From Cellvibrio sp. UBA7671 (lineage in GTDB: Bacteria; Pseudomonadota; Gammaproteobacteria; Pseudomonadales; Cellvibrionaceae): a stretch of DNA of 64,000 bases. Of this stretch, positions 15,914-64,000 are shown piece after piece (the stretch's first letter is position 1; each line of letters starts with the position of its first letter). The notes beneath the pieces are model-generated. The model was not told the DNA's origin. It did not search any database and saw nothing but the letters and a program-made list of their open reading frames with translations. Both the position numbers and the translations under genes were made by a program. The DNA lies in the NCBI GenBank assembly GCA_002483145.1, contig DLHJ01000014.1, positions 248,001 to 312,000 of the forward strand, given 5' to 3'.

Positions 15914-16792
15914 TTAATTTGATACTGACGAATCAGGTACAGCTTGGGGCAATGGTTTAGCAGGTTCAACACTAATCTTGGGGCGATCCATTTTACGTTT
16001 GGCAACCATAATAGTGACTCGGCGATTTTGTGCCCTACCCTGTTCCGTATCATTCGCGGCAACAGGCTGATACTCACCATAACCCACGGCAGACAAACGT
16101 TCAGGAGCAACACCTTTACTCGCCAGATACTTCACAATTGCGCTGGCACGCGCAGTGGAAAGTTCCCAGTTGGTAGGGTATTTCACACTCTTGATGGGAA
16201 TGTTATCGGTAAACCCTTCTACTTGAACCGGGTTTGAATAGCCCTGCAAAATACCCGCAATCTCATCAAATATTTTTTGCGCTTGCTCACTGGTATCTGC
16301 ACTGCCCGATGAAAACAAAATGCTATCCTTCAACTCAATCTGCAACCACAACTCATTGCTGGAGACCTGGATCATTTGATCATTGATTAGCTGCGTAAAT
16401 TTTTCAGTCACCAAATCAGAAATTTGTGTGAGTTCATCACTGGTTTTAATTGGTTCATCCGGCTGCGGAATTTCAACGGTAGATTGGCCGCTAATTGCTG
16501 AGGCCTGCTCCCCACTCACCGGTTCTACTGCTGTTTGCCCCATATCAATAGGTGCAATGATCGCTGTTGATGGCGAGTTAGTGTCTTGCGGCTCAGAATT
16601 TATTTGTGCATCGGTAGGCTGGTTGAATGCTTCAATAAAGGTATCAGATAAGACACGGTATTTACTGTCATTTACTTGGGAAATGGAATACATCACTACA
16701 AAAAAAGCAAACAGCAGGGTAATAAAGTCGGCATAGGAAATCAGCCAACGCTCTTGATTAACATGAACTTCTTGCCGTCTGCGACGCACCAT
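15914..16792 (-). CDS. motD: Flagellar stator protein MotD
   Basis: The MotB-type stator subunit (292 residues) that pairs with MotC. It has one N-terminal membrane helix with the ion-binding aspartate (ISYADFITLLFAFFVVMYSI). After a Ser/Thr/Pro-rich linker comes a C-terminal OmpA-like peptidoglycan-binding domain (VEGFTDNIPI, NWELSTARASAIVKYL, GYGEYQPVAAND, NRRVTI). MotCD is the second stator set of Pseudomonas, used for swarming and high load. The start lies 20 bases after the motC stop. Confidence 0.95.
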   Translation of the reverse strand: MVRRRRQEVHVNQERWLISYADFITLLFAFFVVMYSISQVNDSKYRVLSDTFIEAFNQPTDAQINSEPQDTNSPSTAIIAPIDMGQTAVEPVSGEQASAISGQSTVEIPQPDEPIKTSDELTQISDLVTEKFTQLINDQMIQVSSNELWLQIELKDSILFSSGSADTSEQAQKIFDEIAGILQGYSNPVQVEGFTDNIPIKSVKYPTNWELSTARASAIVKYLASKGVAPERLSAVGYGEYQPVAANDTEQGRAQNRRVTIMVAKRKMDRPKISVEPAKPLPQAVPDSSVSN

Positions 16793-51022: not shown

Positions 51023-52567
51023 TTACTCCGTAATCTCATACCCCTCTTCACGCAACCGCGCGATCTTATAGCGCAGGGTACGCGCGCTAATGCCCAAACG
51101 CTCTGCCGTATTTTTGCGACTGCCGCGTTCGTTGCGCAGGGTGTTCATGATGATTTCGTATTCGCGCTGTTTAAGGTCATTGCCCAGCGCCGGGTTATTT
51201 AGCGATGAGTGATGCACAGGTTGGTTGTTGACCAGCGCGATATTATCAGCGATTCCGCCGACAGGAAATTGGCTAGCGCGGGCGTAGGCTTGTGCAGCAA
51301 AAGATGATTCGCCGTTGGATTCAAAATCCGCGCTTGGATTAACAGCTTGCGCGGCCTCTAACAAATTCGGTTTTTGGCTGTAGTGCGCTGGGCTTTGTGA
51401 GTAAGGGCCGTTTGCGCCCAAACCCAAATCATCCGCCTGGATGGATTTGCCTTCCTGCAAAATTAACGCGCGCTGCATGATATTATCCAGCTCACGCACA
51501 TTACCCGGCCACGGATAGGCGAGCAGCATTTGCTGTGCAGATGCCGATAGACTGACACCGCGACGATTTTGTTTTTGTGCGTGTTTTTGCAAGATTTTTT
51601 CGGCGAGCGGAATAATGTCTTCCACGCGGTCGCGCAACGGTGCCCATTGCAGTGGCAATACGCTCAAGCGGTAGTACAAGTCTTCACGGAATTTTCCGGC
51701 GACAACATCGCTGCGCATATTGCGGTTGGATGTGGCAATCACACGCACATTTAATTTAATTGTCTTGCGGCCACCCAAGCGCTCTACTTCGCGCTCCTGC
51801 AATACGCGCAATAATTTTGCTTGCAAACCAATATCCATTTCGGAAATTTCATCGAGCAATAATGTGCCGCCGTTGGCTTGTTCAAATTTACCGGGGCTGC
51901 TGGTGTGCGCGCCGGTGTAGGCACCTTTTTCATGGCCGAACAACATGGCTTCCAACATATTTTCTGGAATAGCAGCGCAGTTGATCGCAATAAACGGTTG
52001 GTTACGGCGCGATGAATGGTCGTGAATATAACGTGCGAGCACTTCTTTACCGGTACCTGATTCGCCTACTACCAATACGGTTGAATCTGATTGCGCGACA
52101 CGGCGGGCAAGTTGCAATAATTGTTTGCTGGACTGCGCCATAGCAACGGGTTCGTCGCCCTCGATCTGTGCTACGCCCAAGTGACGCGCTACGGTTTCTA
52201 CCAGGGTTTGTGGTTCAAAGGGTTTTACCAAATAATCAACGGCGCCCTGCTTCATCGCATTCACGGATTCAGCGATGCTGGCATAAGCGGTAATCAGCAT
52301 CATGGGAATTTGTGGATATTCTTGCTTCACACAGCGCAGTAAATCATGGCCGCTCATTGCGCCCATATTGACATCGGAAACAATCATGCGGATATCGCCA
52401 TAAAGTGCCAACTCTTTTAGCGCCTCTTCGCCACTACTGACGGCAATTACCGAATAATCGGCTAATTGCAGCGTGTCTGTTAACGCCTCGCGGAGATTGT
52501 TGTCATCTTCAACAACCAATACCTTGATCGCATTTTCAAAATCAGCTTGTTGCAATGCTAACGCCAT
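51023..52567 (-). CDS. fleR: Sigma-54-dependent flagellar response regulator FleR
   Basis: A 514-residue NtrC-type activator. The receiver domain has phospho-Asp65 (IVSDVNMG). The AAA+ domain has Walker A GESGTGKE (168-175), GAYTGA (215-220, Tyr for the usual Phe) and LLLDEI. The C-terminal Fis-type helix-turn-helix is GSRKNTAERLGISARTLRYKI. With FleS it turns on the sigma-54 genes of hook and basal body. I chose the ATG at 52567, with GGGGAA upstream; an earlier frame start at 52618 overlaps fleS. Confidence 0.95.
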   Translation of the reverse strand: MALALQQADFENAIKVLVVEDDNNLREALTDTLQLADYSVIAVSSGEEALKELALYGDIRMIVSDVNMGAMSGHDLLRCVKQEYPQIPMMLITAYASIAESVNAMKQGAVDYLVKPFEPQTLVETVARHLGVAQIEGDEPVAMAQSSKQLLQLARRVAQSDSTVLVVGESGTGKEVLARYIHDHSSRRNQPFIAINCAAIPENMLEAMLFGHEKGAYTGAHTSSPGKFEQANGGTLLLDEISEMDIGLQAKLLRVLQEREVERLGGRKTIKLNVRVIATSNRNMRSDVVAGKFREDLYYRLSVLPLQWAPLRDRVEDIIPLAEKILQKHAQKQNRRGVSLSASAQQMLLAYPWPGNVRELDNIMQRALILQEGKSIQADDLGLGANGPYSQSPAHYSQKPNLLEAAQAVNPSADFESNGESSFAAQAYARASQFPVGGIADNIALVNNQPVHHSSLNNPALGNDLKQREYEIIMNTLRNERGSRKNTAERLGISARTLRYKIARLREEGYEITE

Positions 52568-52577
52568 GATTATTCCC

Positions 52578-53885
52578 CTAAGATGTAAAATTCGCGAACG
52601 GCAACAGCAGACTTGCACAAGTCCCTTTGCCTACTGTTGATTGCAATAAAAATTTTCCGTGATGCGCACGCGCAACGGCTTTCACTACACTTAACCCCAA
52701 GCCAGTACCCTGCGCTTTGGTGGTGACAAATAAATCCCCTACGGATTTGAGCAACTCGGCAGACATTCCCGGCCCTTTATCACACACGCGAATCCACAAA
52801 CGCTGTTCTTCAGAAGCGAGTTGCGCACTGAGTGATGAATCATTCAGGGTTTGCGGATAGAGATTGAATTCAATGCGCAGCGCCGCTTTGCGGTCTACAG
52901 CTTGAATCGCGTTATTGACCAGATTTAGCAACGCACCGATTAATGCATCGCGATTGCATTGGATGTAACGCTCGCGGCAATTGATAATCCATTCGCAGGT
53001 AGATTCGCTGGTCATCAACGGGACTTCCATTGCCTCTGCCAATTCAGACTGCAATTGCGCAACGCTGATCACATCGTTCAGCGCAAGCTCGCCCTTCACA
53101 TAGAAAAGCATGTCTTGCACCTGGCGCTCGATATTATTCAAACGCCCGAGAATTTTTTCTGAAAATTGTTGGCGACGCGCATCATCCAACTTGCCGCTGC
53201 ACAAATGGCCGGCGTATAACATGGCGGACGATAAAGGCGTGCGGATTTGATGTGCGAGTGCACCCATCATTTTGCCTAATGCAGATAAACGCTCATGACG
53301 ACTTAATTCGCCCTGCAAACGACGGGTTTCAGTTTGGTCGGTGAGTAAAATAATTTGGCCATCAGCACCCAGGTTGCGGGTTTGGATACTAATGAGGCGG
53401 CCATCGCGCAATGACACTTCGTGGCCGTCATCCTGACGCGGTGCGAAACAGCGTGCGATCACTTCGCGCCACAATTCGCCTTGCAAAGGTTCGCCTAGCA
53501 ATTCAATCGCAGCGGGGTTTGATTCAGACACGCGCCCGGAGGAATCCAATACCACCACACCACCGGGTAAAAAATTCAGCAGGCTTTCAAGGCGATTGGC
53601 TAATTTTTCTTTTTCTGCCAACTCCTGCAAGCGGCGGTCACTAAGACTGGACAGTTCTTCATTTAATTCAGCAACGCGGTTTTCCAACAGGTGATAAGAA
53701 TCCGCCAGCTGTTCAGACATCTGGTTAAACAGCTCAAACGCACTTTTCAGATCCTGGCCTTTTTCACTGAGCGCCTTCTCCATCGGTAGTGCCGCCAAAG
53801 GCTCATCCGAATTGGCAGCCAGTAAGCCAGCTCGCGCTTTAGCCGCGCTGCCGACCTTGATCACATTGGAAACTGCTTGCGTCAT
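52578..53885 (-). CDS. fleS: Flagellar sensor histidine kinase FleS
   Basis: A 435-residue cytosolic kinase with no membrane helix. It has a coiled coil (about 50-105), a PAS domain (GGVVVLDSSGRVSESNPAAIELLG), HisKA with the phospho-His in ALAHQIRTPLSSAMLYAG, and HATPase (NLVNNAIQAV, DKGPGMSAELL, GTGLGLSVVKAVARAHHG). The lack of membrane parts fits a sensor of basal-body assembly. fleR follows 10 bases downstream. In Pseudomonas fleQ lies just upstream; here it does not. Confidence 0.94.
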   Translation of the reverse strand: MTQAVSNVIKVGSAAKARAGLLAANSDEPLAALPMEKALSEKGQDLKSAFELFNQMSEQLADSYHLLENRVAELNEELSSLSDRRLQELAEKEKLANRLESLLNFLPGGVVVLDSSGRVSESNPAAIELLGEPLQGELWREVIARCFAPRQDDGHEVSLRDGRLISIQTRNLGADGQIILLTDQTETRRLQGELSRHERLSALGKMMGALAHQIRTPLSSAMLYAGHLCSGKLDDARRQQFSEKILGRLNNIERQVQDMLFYVKGELALNDVISVAQLQSELAEAMEVPLMTSESTCEWIINCRERYIQCNRDALIGALLNLVNNAIQAVDRKAALRIEFNLYPQTLNDSSLSAQLASEEQRLWIRVCDKGPGMSAELLKSVGDLFVTTKAQGTGLGLSVVKAVARAHHGKFLLQSTVGKGTCASLLLPFANFTS

Positions 53886-54926: not shown

Positions 54927-54948
54927 GTTGATTCGCTAAACCTGATGT

Positions 54949-54973
54949 ACTATGGTGGCACAATCACCATAGT
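54949..54973. repeat. Inverted repeat before the AraC-type gene
   Basis: Perfect 9-bp arms ACTATGGTG / CACCATAGT around a 7-base loop lie about 25 bases before the preferred start of the next gene. It may be an operator or a terminator stem without a T run. Confidence 0.5.
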
Positions 54974-54995
54974 CGTCACGTCAGGCCAGAGATTA

Positions 54996-56156
54996 ATGAT
55001 TACTCCTATTTTTAATTTAAACGATATTATTCTCATTCTGGCGATAGGTTTGAGTTTAATTCTAGCCTTATTCCAACCCATCTTACCCGCCAAGAAAAAA
55101 CTCACCAAAGCATTATTAGCCAGTTTTTTCTTGAGCCTCACATTATCCGATATCGGCATTATGTTGATCTGGAATGAATACATTCCGCAATCAACCATGA
55201 GCGCAACGCTAGTACCCTACTTCTACTGCTGCTCCATGCTGTTAAAAGCGCCTTTGCTGTTACTGTATGTACGCAGTATTACGGAAGAAAATTTCCAATT
55301 AAAACGCATCCATCTTTTGCATTTAACACCGATGCTCATCGCCATACTGGTGATATCCAGTTTCGATATTGATATCAACCGCCTGAAGCTCGACACCTTT
55401 GGTATGGATGCACTGCTCTATCAAGTCATAGACAGCCTTTGGTATTCGCTGAAAATTATTCCACTGGGATATTTTATCGCCGCAACTTTTACTGTTTGGC
55501 ACTATCACAAAATGCTGCGCCAACAACATTCCGACGTAAATGAAACCGCTCTCTGGTGGTTGTATTATTTAACCCTGGGTTTTGTATTAGCCGGTATTTG
55601 GACGCTCTCTCTAAGCATACTTGCCTATTTCTATCGCTTGCCGTTTGGTGTTACCGATAACTACCTGAACTTTATTTTATTGATCGCACTCTTCTATTAC
55701 AGTATTTCCCATGCGCAAAACCTCACTACCACCAAGGAAGAAGAGGAGTTTGATGATCCGAAAGAATCTGCTGCATTGGTAGACACCAAACCGCTGGATT
55801 CCACTATCAGCAAAATTATGGACGGCATAGTCAACCAAAAGCTTTACCTTAACCAAAGCCTTAACGTTGAGCAGTTTTCAGCGAAGATCGGGGTGCCTTA
55901 CCGGGATGTCTCTTTTGCCATTAACAAAGCATTTGGCACAAACTTTTTTGAGTTTGTTAATTCCTACCGCATTGAAGAATCCAAACGTTATCTCACCGAT
56001 GAAAAATACAAAGACATGACTATTATGGATATTTTATTAGAGTCGGGCTTTAACAGTAAATCGGCATTCCAACGCTTCTTCAAGCGTTTGACGGGCACAT
56101 CACCAACAGAATTCCGCCGCGAGGCATTGCGCAAAGCACACTTTGCGCAGGAGTAG
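54996..56156 (+). CDS. Membrane-anchored AraC-family regulator
   Basis: A 386-residue protein whose first 240 residues hold about seven membrane helices (ILILAIGLSLILALF, ALLASFFLSLTLSDIGIMLIW, FYCCSMLLKAPLLLLYV, LTPMLIAILVIS, IIPLGYFIAATFTVW, YYLTLGFVLAGIWTLSLSILAYF, FILLIALFYYSIS). They are followed by a linker and a C-terminal AraC DNA-binding domain (LNVEQFSAKIGVPYRDVSFAINKAFGTNFFEFVNSYRIEESKRYL, then MDILLESGFNSKSAFQRFFKRLTGTSPTEFRR). Such proteins sense at the membrane and bind DNA directly. An earlier ATG at 54945 is in frame but includes the inverted repeat. Targets are unknown. Confidence 0.85.
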   Translation: MITPIFNLNDIILILAIGLSLILALFQPILPAKKKLTKALLASFFLSLTLSDIGIMLIWNEYIPQSTMSATLVPYFYCCSMLLKAPLLLLYVRSITEENFQLKRIHLLHLTPMLIAILVISSFDIDINRLKLDTFGMDALLYQVIDSLWYSLKIIPLGYFIAATFTVWHYHKMLRQQHSDVNETALWWLYYLTLGFVLAGIWTLSLSILAYFYRLPFGVTDNYLNFILLIALFYYSISHAQNLTTTKEEEEFDDPKESAALVDTKPLDSTISKIMDGIVNQKLYLNQSLNVEQFSAKIGVPYRDVSFAINKAFGTNFFEFVNSYRIEESKRYLTDEKYKDMTIMDILLESGFNSKSAFQRFFKRLTGTSPTEFRREALRKAHFAQE

Positions 56157-56235: not shown

Positions 56236-57825
56236 TTATTTAGGCAAAAGACCAGCATCAGTTAATATCGCAATTGCAGGTTCAAGATAAGCCGCATAAT
56301 GTTTCCATTGCCCAACACTTGCCGCTGAAATCGGTTGCCGGACTTGCACTGCGCTAGCCGTAGCAACTGGCTTGCTATTCTTCTCTACGGCCAAACAGGC
56401 CTCCTCCCACTCCAGACCACAAAAACCTAATAGTGCTTTAATCTCGTCAGTAGGGTTAGCCACTAAGGATTCATAATTAGCCACATAAAAATTATTGGGG
56501 TAAAGCGTCTGCCAGTGGTCAACTAAACGTTTGAATGCCACGTAATAGCGCGCGGCATCTTCAAGATTCAAAGTGTATCCAAAGGTGGAATCATGGAAGC
56601 TGAACAGTTGGCGATAATTACTGACGATAGTATCGAGCGGATTACGGTCAAGGCAGACTATTTTTGCCTCAGGTAAAGCGGCAATAATTAAACCGGCATA
56701 GAGTATATTCAGCGGCAATTTATCCACTAAATAACGCTTTCCCGCCAACAAATAATCCGTACTGGAAATATATTCACGCCCCAATGCTGCAAGATCCACC
56801 TCGTCCAAACGGTTAATAAAATCGCTATCAATAAACTCATTACTGGTTGACTTGAGCTGACGTTTTAGCGCTACCGAAAAATTATACAGCTCACCACCTG
56901 TGGCCACTTGGCTATGGTTTGAGATAATACGCTCAACCAAGGTTGTTCCTGTTCGCGGCATTCCAACAACAAATATCGCTCGCCCATTTGCATAACCCTT
57001 ATTTAACACTGGCGGTTTTGCTGAAAAATGCTGCTTTACTCGTGCAAAAATATCCTCATCCCGCGCAAACTGATAGGCGAGCTTTTTAGTCATTTTCTGC
57101 TTTGCTTGTGCCAGCACCGCCATGGATTCATCACAACACTTTAGTGCCTCAAGCTCTTTGGAAAGCGCATGGGCCACGCACAAACTATCATCAGGATCTG
57201 TTGCCGTGGACACCAACTCACGTAAGCGAGCGATGTGGTTAGTTTGCGGAGTAATCCCCCCCAAACTAGTTAATGCGGCATGTGCTTTGTAATAATCGGG
57301 TTTTAAAGCGATAGCACTTTCATAAGCATCACGAGCACCAGCAAAGTCACCACAAAATTTTAGTGACGAGGCAAGATTAAAAAAAAGACCAGGTTGTGCT
57401 TGCCCAAACGCAATAACTTTTTTAAAACAAACCGCCGCTTGTTCATACATACAAAGTCGATTGTAAGCTACGCCCATCACATCCAACACTTCTGCCGTGT
57501 GGTTTTGCAGACGCTCTGCACGTGCCAACAAATACACAGCATCTGTATTTCCAGCAAGCACCTGTGCACGAGCCAAATACACCGTGTATTCCAGTTTATC
57601 CGGCTCAAGGCGGTAAGCATGGGTTAGCATCTCAACTTCTTTGAGATGGTTTTTGAAATCATAGGCAATGCGGCTCAGCAAAAAATAAGCGCCTGCCCAC
57701 TGCGGATAACGACTAACGGCATCAGTCAATAATTGAAACGCATTGCGGTAGTCGCCTTGCAGCAAAGCAAGGCGCGCCGAATCCTGAATCAGCATTTGTT
57801 CATGTTCATTATCGACTACAACCAT
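56236..57825 (-). CDS. TPR-repeat sulfotransferase family protein
   Basis: A 529-residue protein. The N-terminal half (about 10-200) is a series of tetratricopeptide repeats (QDSARLALLQGDYRNAFQLL, GVAYNRLCMYEQAAVCFKKVIAFG, AGARDAYESAIALKPDYYKAHAAL). The C-terminal half is a sulfotransferase domain with the PAPS 5'-phosphosulfate loop FVVGMPRTGTTLVERIIS and the 3'-phosphate block CLDRNPLDTIVSNYRQLF. Genes of this type commonly sit near TonB-dependent receptors in polysaccharide-degrading Proteobacteria; the acceptor is unknown. It follows the lipoprotein gene by 21 bases. Confidence 0.88.
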   Translation of the reverse strand: MVVVDNEHEQMLIQDSARLALLQGDYRNAFQLLTDAVSRYPQWAGAYFLLSRIAYDFKNHLKEVEMLTHAYRLEPDKLEYTVYLARAQVLAGNTDAVYLLARAERLQNHTAEVLDVMGVAYNRLCMYEQAAVCFKKVIAFGQAQPGLFFNLASSLKFCGDFAGARDAYESAIALKPDYYKAHAALTSLGGITPQTNHIARLRELVSTATDPDDSLCVAHALSKELEALKCCDESMAVLAQAKQKMTKKLAYQFARDEDIFARVKQHFSAKPPVLNKGYANGRAIFVVGMPRTGTTLVERIISNHSQVATGGELYNFSVALKRQLKSTSNEFIDSDFINRLDEVDLAALGREYISSTDYLLAGKRYLVDKLPLNILYAGLIIAALPEAKIVCLDRNPLDTIVSNYRQLFSFHDSTFGYTLNLEDAARYYVAFKRLVDHWQTLYPNNFYVANYESLVANPTDEIKALLGFCGLEWEEACLAVEKNSKPVATASAVQVRQPISAASVGQWKHYAAYLEPAIAILTDAGLLPK

Positions 57826-57846: not shown

Positions 57847-58929
57847 TTACTGGACGTCACAACCATTGGAAATAACTCCGCCCGATTGATTGCCATTCAG
57901 GTTTTTTACATCCAGGAACTTATCATAAATAAACCAGGTAGCACCAACGACCTCGATATTTTCCTTCCATGGCTTATTGAGTGCATCATACTGTTCGCGC
58001 CAGGATTTATAAGCCTGCTGATGTGGATTCTTTTCCAGCCAACATCCCATAAACGGAATATCATTGGTGTTTTTTGGGCCTTCGTTGGAAAAAATGGGCG
58101 CAATTTTTACCTTGCGGCTAGCAGCAGATAGCCACTCAAGACGCTCAAGGCCGTAATTGATAATAGTCACATCCGTCTGCATGTAATAGTGCACTAAAAT
58201 CCGGTCGGTAACATTTCCCAACCTAACTGCTTCCGTTGCATTAATCCAGCCAACATAAATCTCTGTTTGCAAATCATGCACCATGCCGACGGATTTAAAA
58301 TGCTCTAGCATCGCAATCGTATTATTAAACGCAGTGGCGCGATCAGGCATATTCCAGAACTCGTACTCCACATTCAATACGTTGATACGTTCGGATTCGG
58401 GGCGACCATTATTGTAGGCGACTATAGTATTCGCCTCACTCACATCCCCCAAGGCGGCGGCGACGCTTTTAACTCCGGCAGTTAATTTAGCGCGACTGAC
58501 CAATGCAGCAAACTGTTTGGCGGTGGTTGAGGTTGGATTAAGGCCTTCCAAATCATAAAAAATGAGATAGTTAAATCCATTATCGCGTACAAATTTTATA
58601 AATTGATCTTCACGCTCAACATTGCCCAACAATGCATTAGTGCGCCCCGTATTAAGGGACACGTACATTCCGTATAGTTGATCGTTTTGTGGTTCACCAC
58701 CTTGAGCTGATGATGCGATGGAGGAATTGGAGCTAGAAACTTCCGCGCTGGACGCACTTGCTTCTGCTGCTGAACTCGCATTCGTTACTATCTTAGATGA
58801 ATCATTTGATGAAGCACTTGATCCAACAACAGAATTGCCACTGTTGTTGGTATTTTTTATTGCAGAGGAACCACCACCGCAGGACACCAGCGCAAAAATA
58901 AAACTGAAAATACATAAATTGCGTAACAT
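57847..58929 (-). CDS. Polyserine-linker lipoprotein with a divergent GH18-like barrel
   Basis: A 360-residue lipoprotein. The signal peptide ends in lipobox LVSC (Cys17). Residues 18-77 form a Ser/Ala/Asn-rich linker of the kind found in Cellvibrio and Saccharophagus enzymes. The rest is a barrel-like domain (YGMYVSLNTGR, FIKFVRDNGFNYLIFYDLEG, INVLNVEYEFW, TEIYVGWI, RILVHYYMQ, KIAPIFSNEGP). The NxxNxExE arrangement at 183-190 sits where GH18 chitinases have DxxDxDxE. It is about 50 bases from the GH20 gene and is a close paralogue of the product of 61625-63232. Catalysis is not shown. Confidence 0.75.
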   Translation of the reverse strand: MLRNLCIFSFIFALVSCGGGSSAIKNTNNSGNSVVGSSASSNDSSKIVTNASSAAEASASSAEVSSSNSSIASSAQGGEPQNDQLYGMYVSLNTGRTNALLGNVEREDQFIKFVRDNGFNYLIFYDLEGLNPTSTTAKQFAALVSRAKLTAGVKSVAAALGDVSEANTIVAYNNGRPESERINVLNVEYEFWNMPDRATAFNNTIAMLEHFKSVGMVHDLQTEIYVGWINATEAVRLGNVTDRILVHYYMQTDVTIINYGLERLEWLSAASRKVKIAPIFSNEGPKNTNDIPFMGCWLEKNPHQQAYKSWREQYDALNKPWKENIEVVGATWFIYDKFLDVKNLNGNQSGGVISNGCDVQ

Positions 58930-58979
58930 TATAAAAACCTTTCAATAATTTTCCCGGAAGCGGCTGTATAGCCAACACA

Positions 58980-61541
58980 CTAATCAACAGTCGCTGTGTT
59001 GCTTACAACGGAATGTAAGCGGCTGCGCAGCAATACTTGCCCCGTCCCTACATCCACTTTATCTTGATACTGGACCCAATCTTTGCCGTTATTAAGGCTG
59101 TACTCGATACCAATTCCGGGTAACGATGAATTAGCACTTAGCTGGTTGTTAACGCGAATACCACCGGGGGGTGGCAAATAAAATTTAACGCCTGACTGTT
59201 CCAATTTGGGTAACTCTTTTGCAACCAAGGTGGCCGCGAACTCTCGCCAATCAGTAGCGCGTTTGCTCACATCAGGACTATCACTTTCCCACTCCGCCTT
59301 AAACCATGCGCGCTCTGCCAATACAATTACACGCGGGAAAATCATGGTTTGTAATTGTTCTGCAGTCCTGATGGTTTCAGTCCACACCTGCCCTTGCATA
59401 CCCAGAACATGCTCGGGGTTTTTCAGCGGTGGAAGAATGCGGCCAACCAAGCCATTCAAATTGGTAATGTCATTTCCAATAAATGTCCTATCGGCATTGG
59501 CGTAAAGATTATCTGGCATAAAACCAAATACTTTTGCGAGATCGGTATAACGTGTTGCCCAGTGGTAGCCGCGCTCCCCTGCACTGGCTTCATGTGGGTG
59601 ATCAAAATACAAATGTGTTGCACCAGAAATAACAACATCGTAACCGTTATTGGCTAAACGATGCGCACGGTCAGCGACCCCGGCCTCCCAGATATTGTCC
59701 CAGGCATTGGCGATCACGCGTTTATTGAATAATTGGTTGCGGTTAAAGGTATTGTTCGGGTCGTACATCAAACCGTCTTCCCACCCCATTAAATCGAGGC
59801 CACGTTTGTTGGTCATTTCAGAAACACGTTGGACAAAATAGGGTTTAAGGTCAGCTACACCGGCAACGCCTTTATCATTGTTAGCAAATAATTGAGTGCA
59901 CGCGGGTGATGCAGTCCATGCACCTGCACCGACTTCATCGCCACCCATGTGGAATACCGTCAGTTTTTGCCCTGCTTTGCGATACATTTGTTGAAGTTCA
60001 TAAGTCACTTTTTCAATAAATTCATAGGTCGATGGCAAGCAGACGTTGGCTGCATTATCCGAATAACTTTGCACCGACATGTAGCGGGATTTATCTTGCG
60101 GATCACTCAGTAGATATTGCTCTGCAGCGGCTTGTTGACCAGATGCCATTAACTTTTTATAGCGTGCCTCCATGGATTTAATGGCAGCGCGGGAATGGCC
60201 GGGCATATCTATTTCAGGAATAACCTCAATATGGCGTTGCGCCGCAAATTTAATGATCTCGGTAAAATCCGCAGCGGTTAAGTAACCATTGCCTACTGCA
60301 GTTTTACTGGGGCCATTACCCAATTGCGTCATCAGGCAGGTGGTTTCGGTTAAATCGAAACAGCGGAATGCTCCCACCTCCGTTAATTCCGGTAAGCCAG
60401 GAATTTCAATTCGCCAACCTTCATCTTCTGTGAGATGCAAATGGAGTTTATTAAGTTTGTAACGCCCCATTTGTTCAACCAGCGACATTACTGCTTCTTT
60501 GCCGTGAAAATTACGTGCAAGATCGTAATGCATGCCGCGCCATTCCGCGCGCGGCTCATCAAATACCCGCAGCGCAGGCACGGATTGCACGGTTGCTTTT
60601 TCTACTGGCAACAAACTCAATAAACTTTGTACTCCGTAAAACACACCCGTCGCAGTACCGGCTGAAACGGTAATTTTTTCGCTGGTAATATTTAGCTCAT
60701 AGGCTGCAGAATCCGCGAGTTTTTTATCGACACTGAGTGCGATGACCTGTTGCTTGGGAATGTTGGTAGATACTCTTTTTTCCAGCGACAAGCCTGCATC
60801 ATGCAACCGCTTCTGCAAATAACCGGATTCAAACGCAAGGCCACCCACTTCAATAATCACCCAGCGATTATCAATTTGTGCGCTGCCCTTGCTGTAGGTT
60901 ACATTTTTGGGTGTCGGAACTATCTTTACGTGTTCAGTATCTACATCCAATTGGTTAATCGCCATATTGGTGTGATAACGGCTCTTGGTGGTTACAACGG
61001 AATAAAAGTCTTTAGGCGTATCAAAACGTAAAAATTGTTCTGGCTTAATAAAGGGATCAACAAAAGCTTCAAGGTTTTCAGTATCGGTATTGGCAAATAC
61101 GGCTGCATCCCCTGCGGTATTGGCAATAAATGCGCGCGGCATAAAATCGCTGTAACTCACGATGTGGCCACGTGCCACATAGGGAAACCGCAAGGATTTT
61201 CCAGATGTTAAACCCGGGAATTTATCAGTGGGCGAAAGCTCATAAAGATCACCTTGCAGATGCTTAAAGGTAAATTCGGCGGAGTCACTCGACAATATGC
61301 GTTTGACCGAGTGAATATAAATTCTCCAATTTCCCTCTCCTTTTGGTAAGGCCAGGGAGGAATTATTATTGATAGTCACTTGCGCAGTAAAAGCACCTTC
61401 GCGGCCAAAATTACTGACTGTGCCAAAGCGCAATTCCGCGTTTTGGGCAAACACCCTTAAATCCGCCGATGAAAGCGACCCCGCGCACACCTGACCCGCA
61501 ATAAGAACAAGCCCTGCAACTGATAAATATTTTTTCCACAT
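58980..61541 (-). CDS. GH20 beta-N-acetylhexosaminidase (chitobiase type)
   Basis: An 853-residue exported enzyme that should release N-acetylglucosamine from chitooligosaccharides. After a signal peptide (cleavage near VCAG) come the CHB_HEX carbohydrate-binding domain (about 28-180), the GH20b domain (200-330), the GH20 barrel (about 330-770) and the C-terminal CHB_HEX_C domain. The catalytic pair is Asp535-Glu536 in HMGGDEVG; EIDMPGHSRA and HLHLTEDEGWRIEI are also typical. The layout matches Serratia chitobiase. It has its own short upstream region after a terminator. Confidence 0.95.
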   Translation of the reverse strand: MWKKYLSVAGLVLIAGQVCAGSLSSADLRVFAQNAELRFGTVSNFGREGAFTAQVTINNNSSLALPKGEGNWRIYIHSVKRILSSDSAEFTFKHLQGDLYELSPTDKFPGLTSGKSLRFPYVARGHIVSYSDFMPRAFIANTAGDAAVFANTDTENLEAFVDPFIKPEQFLRFDTPKDFYSVVTTKSRYHTNMAINQLDVDTEHVKIVPTPKNVTYSKGSAQIDNRWVIIEVGGLAFESGYLQKRLHDAGLSLEKRVSTNIPKQQVIALSVDKKLADSAAYELNITSEKITVSAGTATGVFYGVQSLLSLLPVEKATVQSVPALRVFDEPRAEWRGMHYDLARNFHGKEAVMSLVEQMGRYKLNKLHLHLTEDEGWRIEIPGLPELTEVGAFRCFDLTETTCLMTQLGNGPSKTAVGNGYLTAADFTEIIKFAAQRHIEVIPEIDMPGHSRAAIKSMEARYKKLMASGQQAAAEQYLLSDPQDKSRYMSVQSYSDNAANVCLPSTYEFIEKVTYELQQMYRKAGQKLTVFHMGGDEVGAGAWTASPACTQLFANNDKGVAGVADLKPYFVQRVSEMTNKRGLDLMGWEDGLMYDPNNTFNRNQLFNKRVIANAWDNIWEAGVADRAHRLANNGYDVVISGATHLYFDHPHEASAGERGYHWATRYTDLAKVFGFMPDNLYANADRTFIGNDITNLNGLVGRILPPLKNPEHVLGMQGQVWTETIRTAEQLQTMIFPRVIVLAERAWFKAEWESDSPDVSKRATDWREFAATLVAKELPKLEQSGVKFYLPPPGGIRVNNQLSANSSLPGIGIEYSLNNGKDWVQYQDKVDVGTGQVLLRSRLHSVVSNTATVD

Positions 61542-61561
61542 AGTGCTAATACCTCTACCAC

Positions 61562-61581
61562 ATCAAACCCTGGAGTTTGAT
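61562..61581. promoter_or_regulatory. Palindrome before the GH20 gene, possible operator
   Basis: ATCAAAC-CCTGGA-GTTTGAT has perfect 7-bp arms and lies 20-40 bases before the GH20 start, where a sugar-responsive repressor could bind. Confidence 0.4.
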
Positions 61582-61588
61582 TAACAAT

Positions 61589-61620
61589 AAAAATGACTGC
61601 CTCACAGAGGCAGTCTGTAA
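61589..61620 (-). terminator. Rho-independent terminator after the CBM32 protein gene
   Basis: A 9-bp stem GACTGCCTC / GAGGCAGTC (loop of 3) is followed on the minus strand by ATTTTTATT, just past the stop of the upstream gene. Confidence 0.8.
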
Positions 61621-61624
61621 CGAA

Positions 61625-63232
61625 TCAATAGACTTCCAACTCAAACAGCGAGAAGCCCCAAGCTGGCAATGCTTTCGCTGTGCCGTTGATGCGGACATAA
61701 CGGCCGGTGCCACTTAAGCCGGTTTGGTCATTGATCAACGCTGTATTTCCCGTAACTGAACGCAGCGTTGTCCAGTTATTGCCATTAGTAGAAATCTGGA
61801 TTTGATAAGCCGTTGCGTAAGCTGCTTCCCAGGTTAATTTCACCCGGGTAATGCTGTATGAAGCACCCAGATCAACCTGAATCCACTGTGAGCCGGAATA
61901 AGCACTTGCCCAACGGGTTGTGGTGGTATTGCCGTCAACTATTTTTGCAGGTTCATAACCCGCTGCGATAAATGAAGATGCCGTAACCGATTTATTCAGC
62001 GCGCGATTTGTTCCAGAACCACCGCAGCTACCGCCTATGCTTAAGCTCGCATTGGTTGAGGTAAAACTGGTGGGATTATTTGCATCGTAACTAATCACTC
62101 GCGCCGCATAATTACCCACATCTGCTGCGCTGATGTTAGATACAGTGAGTGATGCTGTACGTGCGCCAGCAATGTTTCCACCATCAATCAAGCACTTGCC
62201 ATTTTTCATCCAGCAATAACTTTTGTTGGTAGCAGAACTCGCGACAGTAAAAGTGCGCGACTGACCAGCGCAGGCAGTTTGATTGGTGGGATTGCTGGTA
62301 ATGTGATTGGGTTTAGCAGCGTAAATAGCGGGAAAATGATTGTATAAAAACCAATTGGAACCCACGACTTGAAGATTATTTTTCCAGGTGGCATTGAGTG
62401 CGTTGTAGCCGGTAATCCAACTTTTAAACGCTTTATCATTCGGGTTGGTTGCTAACCAGTTGCCCATAAAATAGGTTTCAGCATCGTCAGTCGTTGTTGG
62501 GCCTTCATTGGAAAAAATAGGCGCTATGTTCACTTTGCGGCTGGCACCGGCGAGGTACTGCAAACGCTCTATACCGTAATTAATAATTTCGGTATCGGTC
62601 TGGCGATAAAAATGTACCAATACCCGATCAGCTGCATCACCCAAACGCGCGCCTTCTGTAGCGGTAATCCAGCCAATATAAATTTCAGTGGTTAAGTTAT
62701 TGGCAGTACCAAGATTTTTGAAGTAATTCAGTACATTGATGGTTTCATCAAATTCAGCAGCTCGGTTAGTTGTAGAACGCCAAAATTCACGCTCCACATT
62801 GAGCACATCAATTCGCTCGTTAAATGCATGGCTATTGTTGTAATCGACAATGTTGTTGCCAAATTGTGATTCCGCTAATGCTGCCCCCACTTGCTGCACG
62901 CCATACTGGGTTTTTGCACGGGAAATCAGCGATGCCAATTGTGTTGCACGGGTAGAATTGGCCACTAATCCTTGCAGGTCGTACATGATCAGGTAATTGA
63001 TGCCGTTGTCGCGCGCAAATTTGAGCAAGGTATTTTCAGCTGCGGTATCACCCAATACGCCAGCGATTCTGGAGGTTGAATCAAGCTTTACATACATCGC
63101 ATTAATGTCTGCGCAACCGCCACCGACATAGGCATTACAGGTTTGTTGTGCACTAACTGAATAACAAAAAATAAATGATGAGATAAATAATGATAGAAAT
63201 TTAAAAATACGAAGGTTGAATAATTTTTTCAT
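61625..63232 (-). CDS. Secreted GH18-like barrel protein with Ig-like and CBM32-type domains
   Basis: A 535-residue secreted protein. A signal peptide (SLFISSFIFCYSVSAQ) leads into a barrel-like domain (about 44-305) that matches the neighbouring lipoprotein block by block: ARDNGINYLIMYDLQG, IDVLNVEREFW, TEIYIGWITATE, RVLVHFYRQTD and KVNIAPIFSNEGP. Here the GH18-like motif reads DxxNxExE (142-149). Next come an Ig-like domain (about 313-400, with Cys321 and Cys340) and a discoidin/CBM32-type C-terminal domain (NRALNKSVTASSF, ESPAKIVDG-like YEPAKIVDGNTTTRW, WIQVDLGASYSITRVKLTWE). It should bind and perhaps process a GlcNAc-containing polymer. Confidence 0.78.
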   Translation of the reverse strand: MKKLFNLRIFKFLSLFISSFIFCYSVSAQQTCNAYVGGGCADINAMYVKLDSTSRIAGVLGDTAAENTLLKFARDNGINYLIMYDLQGLVANSTRATQLASLISRAKTQYGVQQVGAALAESQFGNNIVDYNNSHAFNERIDVLNVEREFWRSTTNRAAEFDETINVLNYFKNLGTANNLTTEIYIGWITATEGARLGDAADRVLVHFYRQTDTEIINYGIERLQYLAGASRKVNIAPIFSNEGPTTTDDAETYFMGNWLATNPNDKAFKSWITGYNALNATWKNNLQVVGSNWFLYNHFPAIYAAKPNHITSNPTNQTACAGQSRTFTVASSATNKSYCWMKNGKCLIDGGNIAGARTASLTVSNISAADVGNYAARVISYDANNPTSFTSTNASLSIGGSCGGSGTNRALNKSVTASSFIAAGYEPAKIVDGNTTTTRWASAYSGSQWIQVDLGASYSITRVKLTWEAAYATAYQIQISTNGNNWTTLRSVTGNTALINDQTGLSGTGRYVRINGTAKALPAWGFSLFELEVY

Positions 63233-63415: not shown

Positions 63416-64000
63416 CTAGAGCTTGGCGCGAATACCAAAGGTGTATAAAGCACCGGTATCTTCAAAACCGATGAATTGGTTTTTGTAACGGCCATATTTG
63501 TTGACGGTTTCGCCGGTGACGTTACTGCCTTCAACAAACACCGTAATCTTGTCGGTGAAATCGTAACTTGCACTGACATCAACCGCACCATAGGCATCGT
63601 AATGAACAGGTTCACTACTTGGCCCGTTAGATACACGGCCGAGGAATTCGGTGCGGTAGTTATAGGCAACACGCAATTGCAGGCCATCTTTATCGTAAAA
63701 AACCGTTGCGTTTCCAGTGTCACTAATACCTGGCAACGCAAATCGTTGGATTGCACCTGCAGCACTTAGTGATGCATCGCTGTTCACAAATGTGTAGTTA
63801 CCGGATAAACCAAATCCATTTTCAAACACGTGAGTCCAGTTAAGTTCAGCACCTTCAATAGTGGCCGACTCACCGTTTTGTGGACGCGTAACGGTAAACG
63901 TTCGCCAAGCCGGATCTTCAACATCAACAATCGTTTCCAAGGTTTCCGGCAAACTCATCGTCACGATAAAATCGTCGATATCTTTTTTATACAACGCCAC
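63416..64000 (-). CDS. TonB-dependent receptor, C-terminal part (5' end outside window)
   Basis: The last 194 residues of an outer-membrane beta-barrel. Alternating strands and turns typical of TonB receptors are seen (ATIEGAELNWTHVFENGFGLSGNYTFVNSDAS, LRVAYNYRTEF, YGAVDVSASYDFTDKITVFVEGSNVTGE). It ends in TFGIRAKL; a final hydrophobic residue is common in barrel proteins. The plug domain and TonB box lie outside the window. Its position suggests uptake of the oligosaccharides produced by this locus. Confidence 0.9.
   Translation of the reverse strand: MALYKKDIDDFIVTMSLPETLETIVDVEDPAWRTFTVTRPQNGESATIEGAELNWTHVFENGFGLSGNYTFVNSDASLSAAGAIQRFALPGISDTGNATVFYDKDGLQLRVAYNYRTEFLGRVSNGPSSEPVHYDAYGAVDVSASYDFTDKITVFVEGSNVTGETVNKYGRYKNQFIGFEDTGALYTFGIRAKL

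Follow-up and report, generated by a model that had tools for sequence, protein, structure and literature searches.

A shared extracellular barrel domain in Cellvibrio sp. UBA7671 may found an undescribed family of glycosidase-like proteins

Chitinases and endo-beta-N-acetylglucosaminidases of glycoside hydrolase (GH) family 18 are TIM barrels with a spaced acidic motif, DxxDxDxE, that ends strand 4, an MxYD motif whose tyrosine follows strand 6, and a tryptophan on strand 8. In clan GH-A, the corresponding features are an NE pair on strand 4 that supplies the acid/base Glu, a nucleophile Glu closing strand 7, an HxY motif and, again, a strand-8 tryptophan. Here we describe a domain of about 257 residues that is shared by two exported proteins encoded on either side of a GH20 beta-N-acetylhexosaminidase gene in Cellvibrio sp. 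UBA7671 (contig DLHJ01000014.1, positions 248,001 to 312,000; this stretch of 64,000 nucleotides is called the window below). We refer to the lipoprotein as protein 1 and to the protein bearing a carbohydrate-binding module of family CBM32 as protein 2. The shared domain resembles GH18 enzymes in its predicted TIM barrel, in a spaced acidic motif at the end of strand 4, in a conserved tyrosine just after strand 6 and in its setting within a locus related to N-acetylglucosamine (GlcNAc). It differs from them in that no significant sequence homology was found, in a glutamate that takes the place of the aspartate before the acid, and in the absence of MxYD.

Two further barrels and one uptake system invite comparison. 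Cwp19 is reportedly a lytic transglycosylase, and the C-terminal barrel of PgaB, part of a poly-GlcNAc deacetylase, belongs to GH153. Uptake of chito-oligosaccharides in Cellvibrio japonicus reportedly involves two TonB transporters and one hexosaminidase; the logic of a TonB receptor plus a hexosaminidase is the same here, whereas the window locus has its own GH20 gene and the barrel proteins. The Cwp19 paper names Asp195-Asp196 as the likely first active-site acids of Cwp19, places Gly328 where others have a strand-7 Glu, and assigns Asp466 and the strand-7 Glu607 to PgaB (PMC5765458). Our domain differs from both in sequence, with 10% identity to the Cwp19/GHL10 glycosidase domain and 7% to the PgaB barrel, in which Asp466 stands rather than an ExE motif. 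When 23 members of the family were scanned with HMMER default filters and an E limit of 1, the GHL10 (Cwp19) profile of Pfam gave no match.

Proteins 1 and 2 align over 255 residues with 55% identity (E 2e-97), so their homology is real and chance likeness is ruled out. A preliminary description, made from the sequence alone, had proposed a barrel-like domain common to the two proteins flanking GH20, and this holds: the open reading frames lie where it placed them and its motif numbering is exact, namely N183-V-L-N186-V-E188-Y-E190-F-W192 in protein 1 and D142-V-L-N145-V-E147-R-E149-F-W151 in protein 2. It had also taken one copy to be tethered and the other to be secreted with a CBM, with which the N-termini agree, and the CBM32 of protein 2 is real (Table 1). 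Export signals were judged by eye and by pattern throughout; the lipobox pattern is present in eight of the 22 copies that we found in the host family, Cellvibrionaceae, and the N-termini of most of the others look signal-like (by eye).

Profile and sequence searches of Pfam, NCBIfam and the PDB sequences returned no match to the barrel domain, and so also no described family of another function, a result that the preliminary description had named as counting against its proposal. PDB matches to the pair fall on the CBM32 and immunoglobulin (Ig)-like parts, save three weak ones: a phosphoribosyltransferase (E 0.56) and, aligned to the barrel, chains of wsv230 (E 0.24-0.25; E 1-1.1 in a repeat search and none in a third). 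No description recognisable as this domain turned up among the papers listed by literature searches. AlphaFold2 confidently models the domain of protein 1 as a TIM barrel (pLDDT 92.6, pTM 0.90) in which ExE sits where strand 4 ends. A TIM barrel with the NVExE segment closing strand 4 had been set beforehand as the test of the proposal, and the predicted models bear it out. Of the 50 chains listed as structural neighbours, nearly all are glycosidases or derived from glycosidases, judged by title; neither Foldseek nor VIA-align picked out a single family as the nearest fold. These sequence searches and models are best read as pointing to a so far undescribed family of glycosidase-like TIM-barrel proteins that act outside the cell, with the shared domain as its founding member.

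Conservation was examined in an alignment, A3, of 23 rows from two phyla, drawn from 12 of the 22 Cellvibrionaceae copies and from 11 Bacteroidota genomes, each represented once (in the domain numbering used here, adding 84 gives the residue of protein 1). Ten positions are invariant in all 23 rows: E104, E106, F107, L124, Y141, G143, D158, Y165, L180 and G245. E104, E106, Y141 and Y165 correspond to residues 188, 190, 225 and 249 of protein 1, the two tyrosines lying on strands 5 and 6. Of the motif residues, E188, E190 and F191 alone never vary, while position 99 (residue 183) is D in 17 rows, N in five and Q in one, and N102 (N186) is N in 19. Because both glutamates and the phenylalanine never change while the Asn positions do, the fixed feature is, on this alignment, ExEF followed by W or Y rather than the asparagines. 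Of the four motif positions named in the preliminary description, the two glutamates are fixed and the other two vary. At residue 183 the window lipoprotein has N, as do four Bacteroidota copies, against D in 14/14 other copies of the genus.

Other candidate active-site residues are less uniformly kept. H163 is His in 18/23 rows and W248 is Trp in 16/23; the residue after Y165 is R, Q, V, H or M and never D. On strand 7, E199 (E283 in protein 1) is Glu in 19 rows and Arg in four, all of which keep ExE. The active sites of TIM barrels lie at the C-terminal ends of the strands, and when columns were ranked with similar rows down-weighted, 12 of the 30 most conserved fell there, in a region of 48 of the 257 positions (hypergeometric p 0.003). 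The N-terminal strand ends, serving as a control with 38 positions, hold five of the 30. E199 is absent from these 30 columns.

The domain is sparsely distributed. It occurs in 8/21 genomes of the genus Cellvibrio and in 15 of 144 Cellvibrionaceae genomes, in 22 copies; Cellvibrio mixtus J3-8 is among the strains that carry the locus. An order-wide draw (2/293 genomes) and a phylum-wide draw (1/299) gave members of the family only, the window's own genome included. A draw from Bacteroidota, the phylum of a Saprospiraceae metagenome-assembled genome (MAG), gave matches in 3/296 genomes, one of which (G862) is a true relative. The other two, G957 and G918, matched weakly and were dropped as family members, as Pfam calls both of the GH2 barrel type. 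An enlarged profile, A2, matched 11/396 genomes in the order of G862, that genome included. Draws from Bacillota (the phylum of a Lachnospiraceae MAG; 0/101) and a second time from Bacteroidota (0/153) were empty, which is weak evidence of absence because neither draw was shown to contain a positive genome. No relative was found on plasmids or viral contigs at the limits used. In a tree built from the 23 A2 rows, protein 1 and six further tethered copies form one group (support 91/99), and a tethered copy of another genome (G011; L035 10979-12952) falls among the CBM-type copies (support 100/99); from this there were at least two changes between tethered and CBM forms. The root is unsure because the outgroup branch is very long.

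Gene content in Cellvibrionaceae links the domain to one receptor, which is the most telling part of the context. Receptor matches were listed at E 1e-100 or better, with scoring confined to the top six candidates of each genome. Among the matches listed, at least 64% identity to the TonB receptor of the window locus is reached in all genomes with the barrel (15/15) and in no other; the best in the remaining 129 genomes has 41% identity, and the 13 genomes of the genus without the barrel show none above that value. A GH20 gene lies within the locus in 15/15 barrel genomes, in 12 of them as the immediate neighbour of a barrel gene. Since 14/15 of these genomes have a further GH20 match elsewhere at E 1e-60 or better, the copy in the locus looks dedicated to it. 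The locus also contains a tetratricopeptide repeat (TPR)-sulfotransferase in 14/15 cases (absent in L036), an AraC-type regulator in 14/15 (L038, the exception, is covered only to position 16000) and a CBM32 in 13/15 (not found in L038 and L064). The order of these genes is not fixed. In L035 and L036 the receptor is preceded by GH20, which lies upstream of it, and in L038 the barrel gene is on the opposite strand with another gene in between, so the genes remain together despite rearrangement. Two CBM-type barrel proteins, from G015 (locus L036) and G016 (locus L037), have two tandem CBM32 modules.

The CBM32 of protein 2 hints at the substrate. Its nearest PDB entries, 2rv9 (E 3e-30) and 4zz5/4zz8 (E 2.8e-29), are named glucanase/chitosanase, and we take them to be the DD1/DD2 modules of Paenibacillus, which would make these modules its closest solved relatives, by overall similarity only. 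DD1/DD2 are reported to bind chitosan (PMC5651945, PMC5635096) and, in the chitosanase of Paenibacillus sp. IK-5, are attached to a GH8 enzyme (PMC5635096), whereas in protein 2 the module is joined to the barrel. Taken together, the locus suggests uptake of a glycan containing GlcNAc or glucosamine (GlcN). The preliminary description had put forward GlcNAc-polymer-active enzymes or binding proteins with a degenerate GH18-like motif; the locus content supports the link to GlcNAc/GlcN, and the idea that the domain is a form of GH18 finds no support in the comparisons given further below.

The Bacteroidota copies are more varied. Some are small lipoproteins (L084-L087, by eye), one has a secretion tail (L082) and one is fused to a LamG-type domain (L091). 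The largest, of 1769 residues (L088 3962-9271, in G1072), combines the barrel with PD40 repeats, a GH9 catalytic domain and a beta-helix region. In G862 (L060) the barrel gene is flanked on one side by a cluster that includes two BNR (sialidase-like) genes and a DHDPS-family gene, and on the other, by eye, by a SusC/SusD-like pair; a gene resembling a transposase is also adjacent. The neighbours in L083 are sugar-nucleotide genes of a biosynthetic kind (by eye).

We infer catalysis, endo action and substrate as follows. Protein 1 would be held at the membrane by its lipid and protein 2 would be released with its CBM32. Together they would make endo cuts in a polymer containing GlcNAc and/or GlcN, which is most likely similar to chitin or chitosan. 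The resulting oligosaccharides would enter through the TonB receptor, and GH20 would trim them. The candidate acid is E190 (E149 in protein 2). Its partner could be the N-acetyl group of the substrate, held by E188 and Y249 as in the logic of GH18, or, equally open, the strand-7 glutamate E283, as in the two-Glu logic of retaining enzymes. That the domain is an enzyme of some kind we regard as probable. The statement in full, of a glycosidase-like family acting on amino-sugar polymers and making GlcNAc/GlcN oligosaccharides for the TonB receptor, is offered tentatively, as falling a little short of an even chance. A bolder version is more doubtful, though still worth considering: a new GH family across Cellvibrionaceae and Bacteroidota in which an ExE dyad on strand 4 replaces DxE, with the tethered and released pair of Cellvibrio serving a TonB receptor of its own by cutting chitin that is partly deacetylated (chitosan). 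If catalytic, the domain would add a family with a two-Glu strand-4 signature to the enzymes of amino-sugar polymers and would account for the supply of one particular TonB receptor in some Cellvibrionaceae.

Several observations weigh against this glycosidase proposal. No sequence homology of the domain to any proven glycosidase was established, and the top rows of the Foldseek search include F420 and MTHFR barrels, with TM-scores by query length mostly of 0.4-0.57. The four rows with Arg on strand 7 count against a universal two-Glu mechanism, and the two invariant glutamates could also bind an amino sugar. In the other Bacteroidota loci, L084-L087 among them, no glycan-degradation genes were seen beside the barrel gene (by eye). 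Since few Bacteroidota neighbours have to do with glycan breakdown, a general tie of the domain to that process is weakened, and it is Cellvibrionaceae, together with a few fusions, that supply the link to glycans.

One alternative is that the barrel does not cut at all. A non-catalytic, glycan-binding barrel, comparable to chitolectins or surface glycan-binding proteins, might pass amino-sugar oligosaccharides to the TonB receptor, both from the membrane and in a released form. One copy being a lipoprotein and the other bearing a CBM would suit such a role, as would the co-occurrence with a single TonB receptor and the presence of a GH20 that already provides a hydrolase; the chitinase-like proteins IDGF2 and Ym1, which lack activity, are also among the structural matches. 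Yet both Glu of ExE are kept in every row of A3, whereas chitolectins typically lose the catalytic Glu, and protein 2 already has a CBM32 for binding. On balance a purely binding role seems possible but less likely than catalysis. If it were nevertheless correct, the family would represent a glycan-binding barrel with an intact, catalytic-looking dyad, and as such a caution for annotation.

A second alternative keeps catalysis and specifies its mechanism, and it forms one branch of the best explanation rather than an exclusive competitor: a retaining glycosidase similar to clan GH-A, with glutamates on strands 4 and 7, an HxY on strand 6 and a Trp on strand 8, in place of the N-acetyl-assisted catalysis of GH18. 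The counts given above for the strand-7 Glu, H163, Y165 and W248 are consistent with it, and barrels of GH1, GH5, GH72 and GH164 appear in the structural list together with PgaB, whose Asp466 and Glu607 have been mentioned. Moreover, the two GH2-type proteins of the 296-genome draw give weak matches (per-genome E 3e-4 and 4e-4; 0.0015 and 0.00026 by hhalign) in which strands 5-6 are aligned and HxY keeps its register. However, chance alone should yield a match this strong in roughly one of ten surveys of 296 genomes. On strand 4 the domain reads N102-V103-E104, and a weak alignment places the NE of a GH2-type protein on N102-V103, one position off E104; the strand-7 Glu, in turn, is Arg in rows that keep ExE. 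We consider this reading possible but doubtful.

GH18 was the family that the motif had first brought to mind. The Pfam model (PF00704) does not match the barrel domains even with a high E limit and matches six other places in the same genome, neither barrel protein among them. Aligned by hhalign with four of these six, the domain matches over the motif only (31 columns, in the register first proposed, probability 0.5%, E 0.13); hmmsearch scores the same four domains as noise, with one insignificant alignment falling in that register. DxxDxDxE itself is not matched: the place is right and the letters are mostly D-x-x-N-x-E-x-E, with only the last Glu agreeing in 23/23 rows and the first Asp in 17. 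Membership in GH18 is not supported by these sequence comparisons; a GH18-like way of working is possible. That the domain is a divergent true GH18 member is improbable, for although the motif lies in register at the end of strand 4, Y165 could be the tyrosine of MxYD, W248 could be the strand-8 Trp and 17 of the 50 structural neighbours listed are GH18-type (by title), the alignment is confined to the motif, the GH18 model finds other proteins, a Glu stands two before the acid in all rows and no Asp follows the tyrosine.

The genes of the window locus are collected in Table 1. Beyond the preliminary description, we note the Ig-like stretch between barrel and CBM32 in protein 2 and the TonB receptor gene that heads the row. 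On the minus strand the order is TonB receptor, protein 2, GH20, protein 1 and the TPR-sulfotransferase-like gene. Because these genes are co-directional with short gaps (about 20 to 190 bases), the row suggests an operon.

Table 1. Features of the barrel locus and their positions in the window
Feature	Position	Strand	Basis
Barrel protein 1, 360 aa: lipoprotein signal (lipobox LVSC), Ser-rich linker (about residues 18-84), barrel domain	57847-58929	-	
Predicted TIM-barrel domain, protein 1, residues 85-341	57907-58677	-	AlphaFold2; no Pfam, NCBIfam or PDB sequence match
Motif NVLNVEYEFW, protein 1, residues 183-192	58354-58383	-	
Barrel protein 2, 535 aa: signal peptide (by eye), barrel, Ig-like domain, CBM32	61625-63232	-	
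Predicted TIM-barrel domain, protein 2, residues 45-300	62333-63100	-	Similarity to protein 1; genus search
Motif DVLNVEREFW, protein 2, residues 142-151	62780-62809	-	
Ig-like domain, protein 2, residues 308-375	62108-62311	-	PF13927, E 2.1e-5, 25.4 bits (below curated cut-off of 30)
CBM32, protein 2, residues 408-535	61628-62011	-	PF00754, E 1.3e-24, 87.1 bits (above cut-off of 28.2)
GH20 beta-N-acetylhexosaminidase, chitobiase architecture, signal peptide by eye	58980-61541	-	PF00728, E 7.5e-93; PF03173, PF02838, PF03174 (CHB_HEX parts included)
TonB-dependent receptor, C-terminal part; gene continues past window end, 942 aa whole	63416-64000	-	TIGR01782, E 9.3e-47
TPR-sulfotransferase-like protein, last gene in row	56236-57825	-	PF13469, E 2.7e-42
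AraC-type regulator, N-terminal half hydrophobic (by eye), convergent with gene row	54945-56156	+	PF12833, E 1.5e-17

On the far side of the region, translations point, by eye, to a sensor kinase and sigma-54-type response regulator pair (51023-53885).

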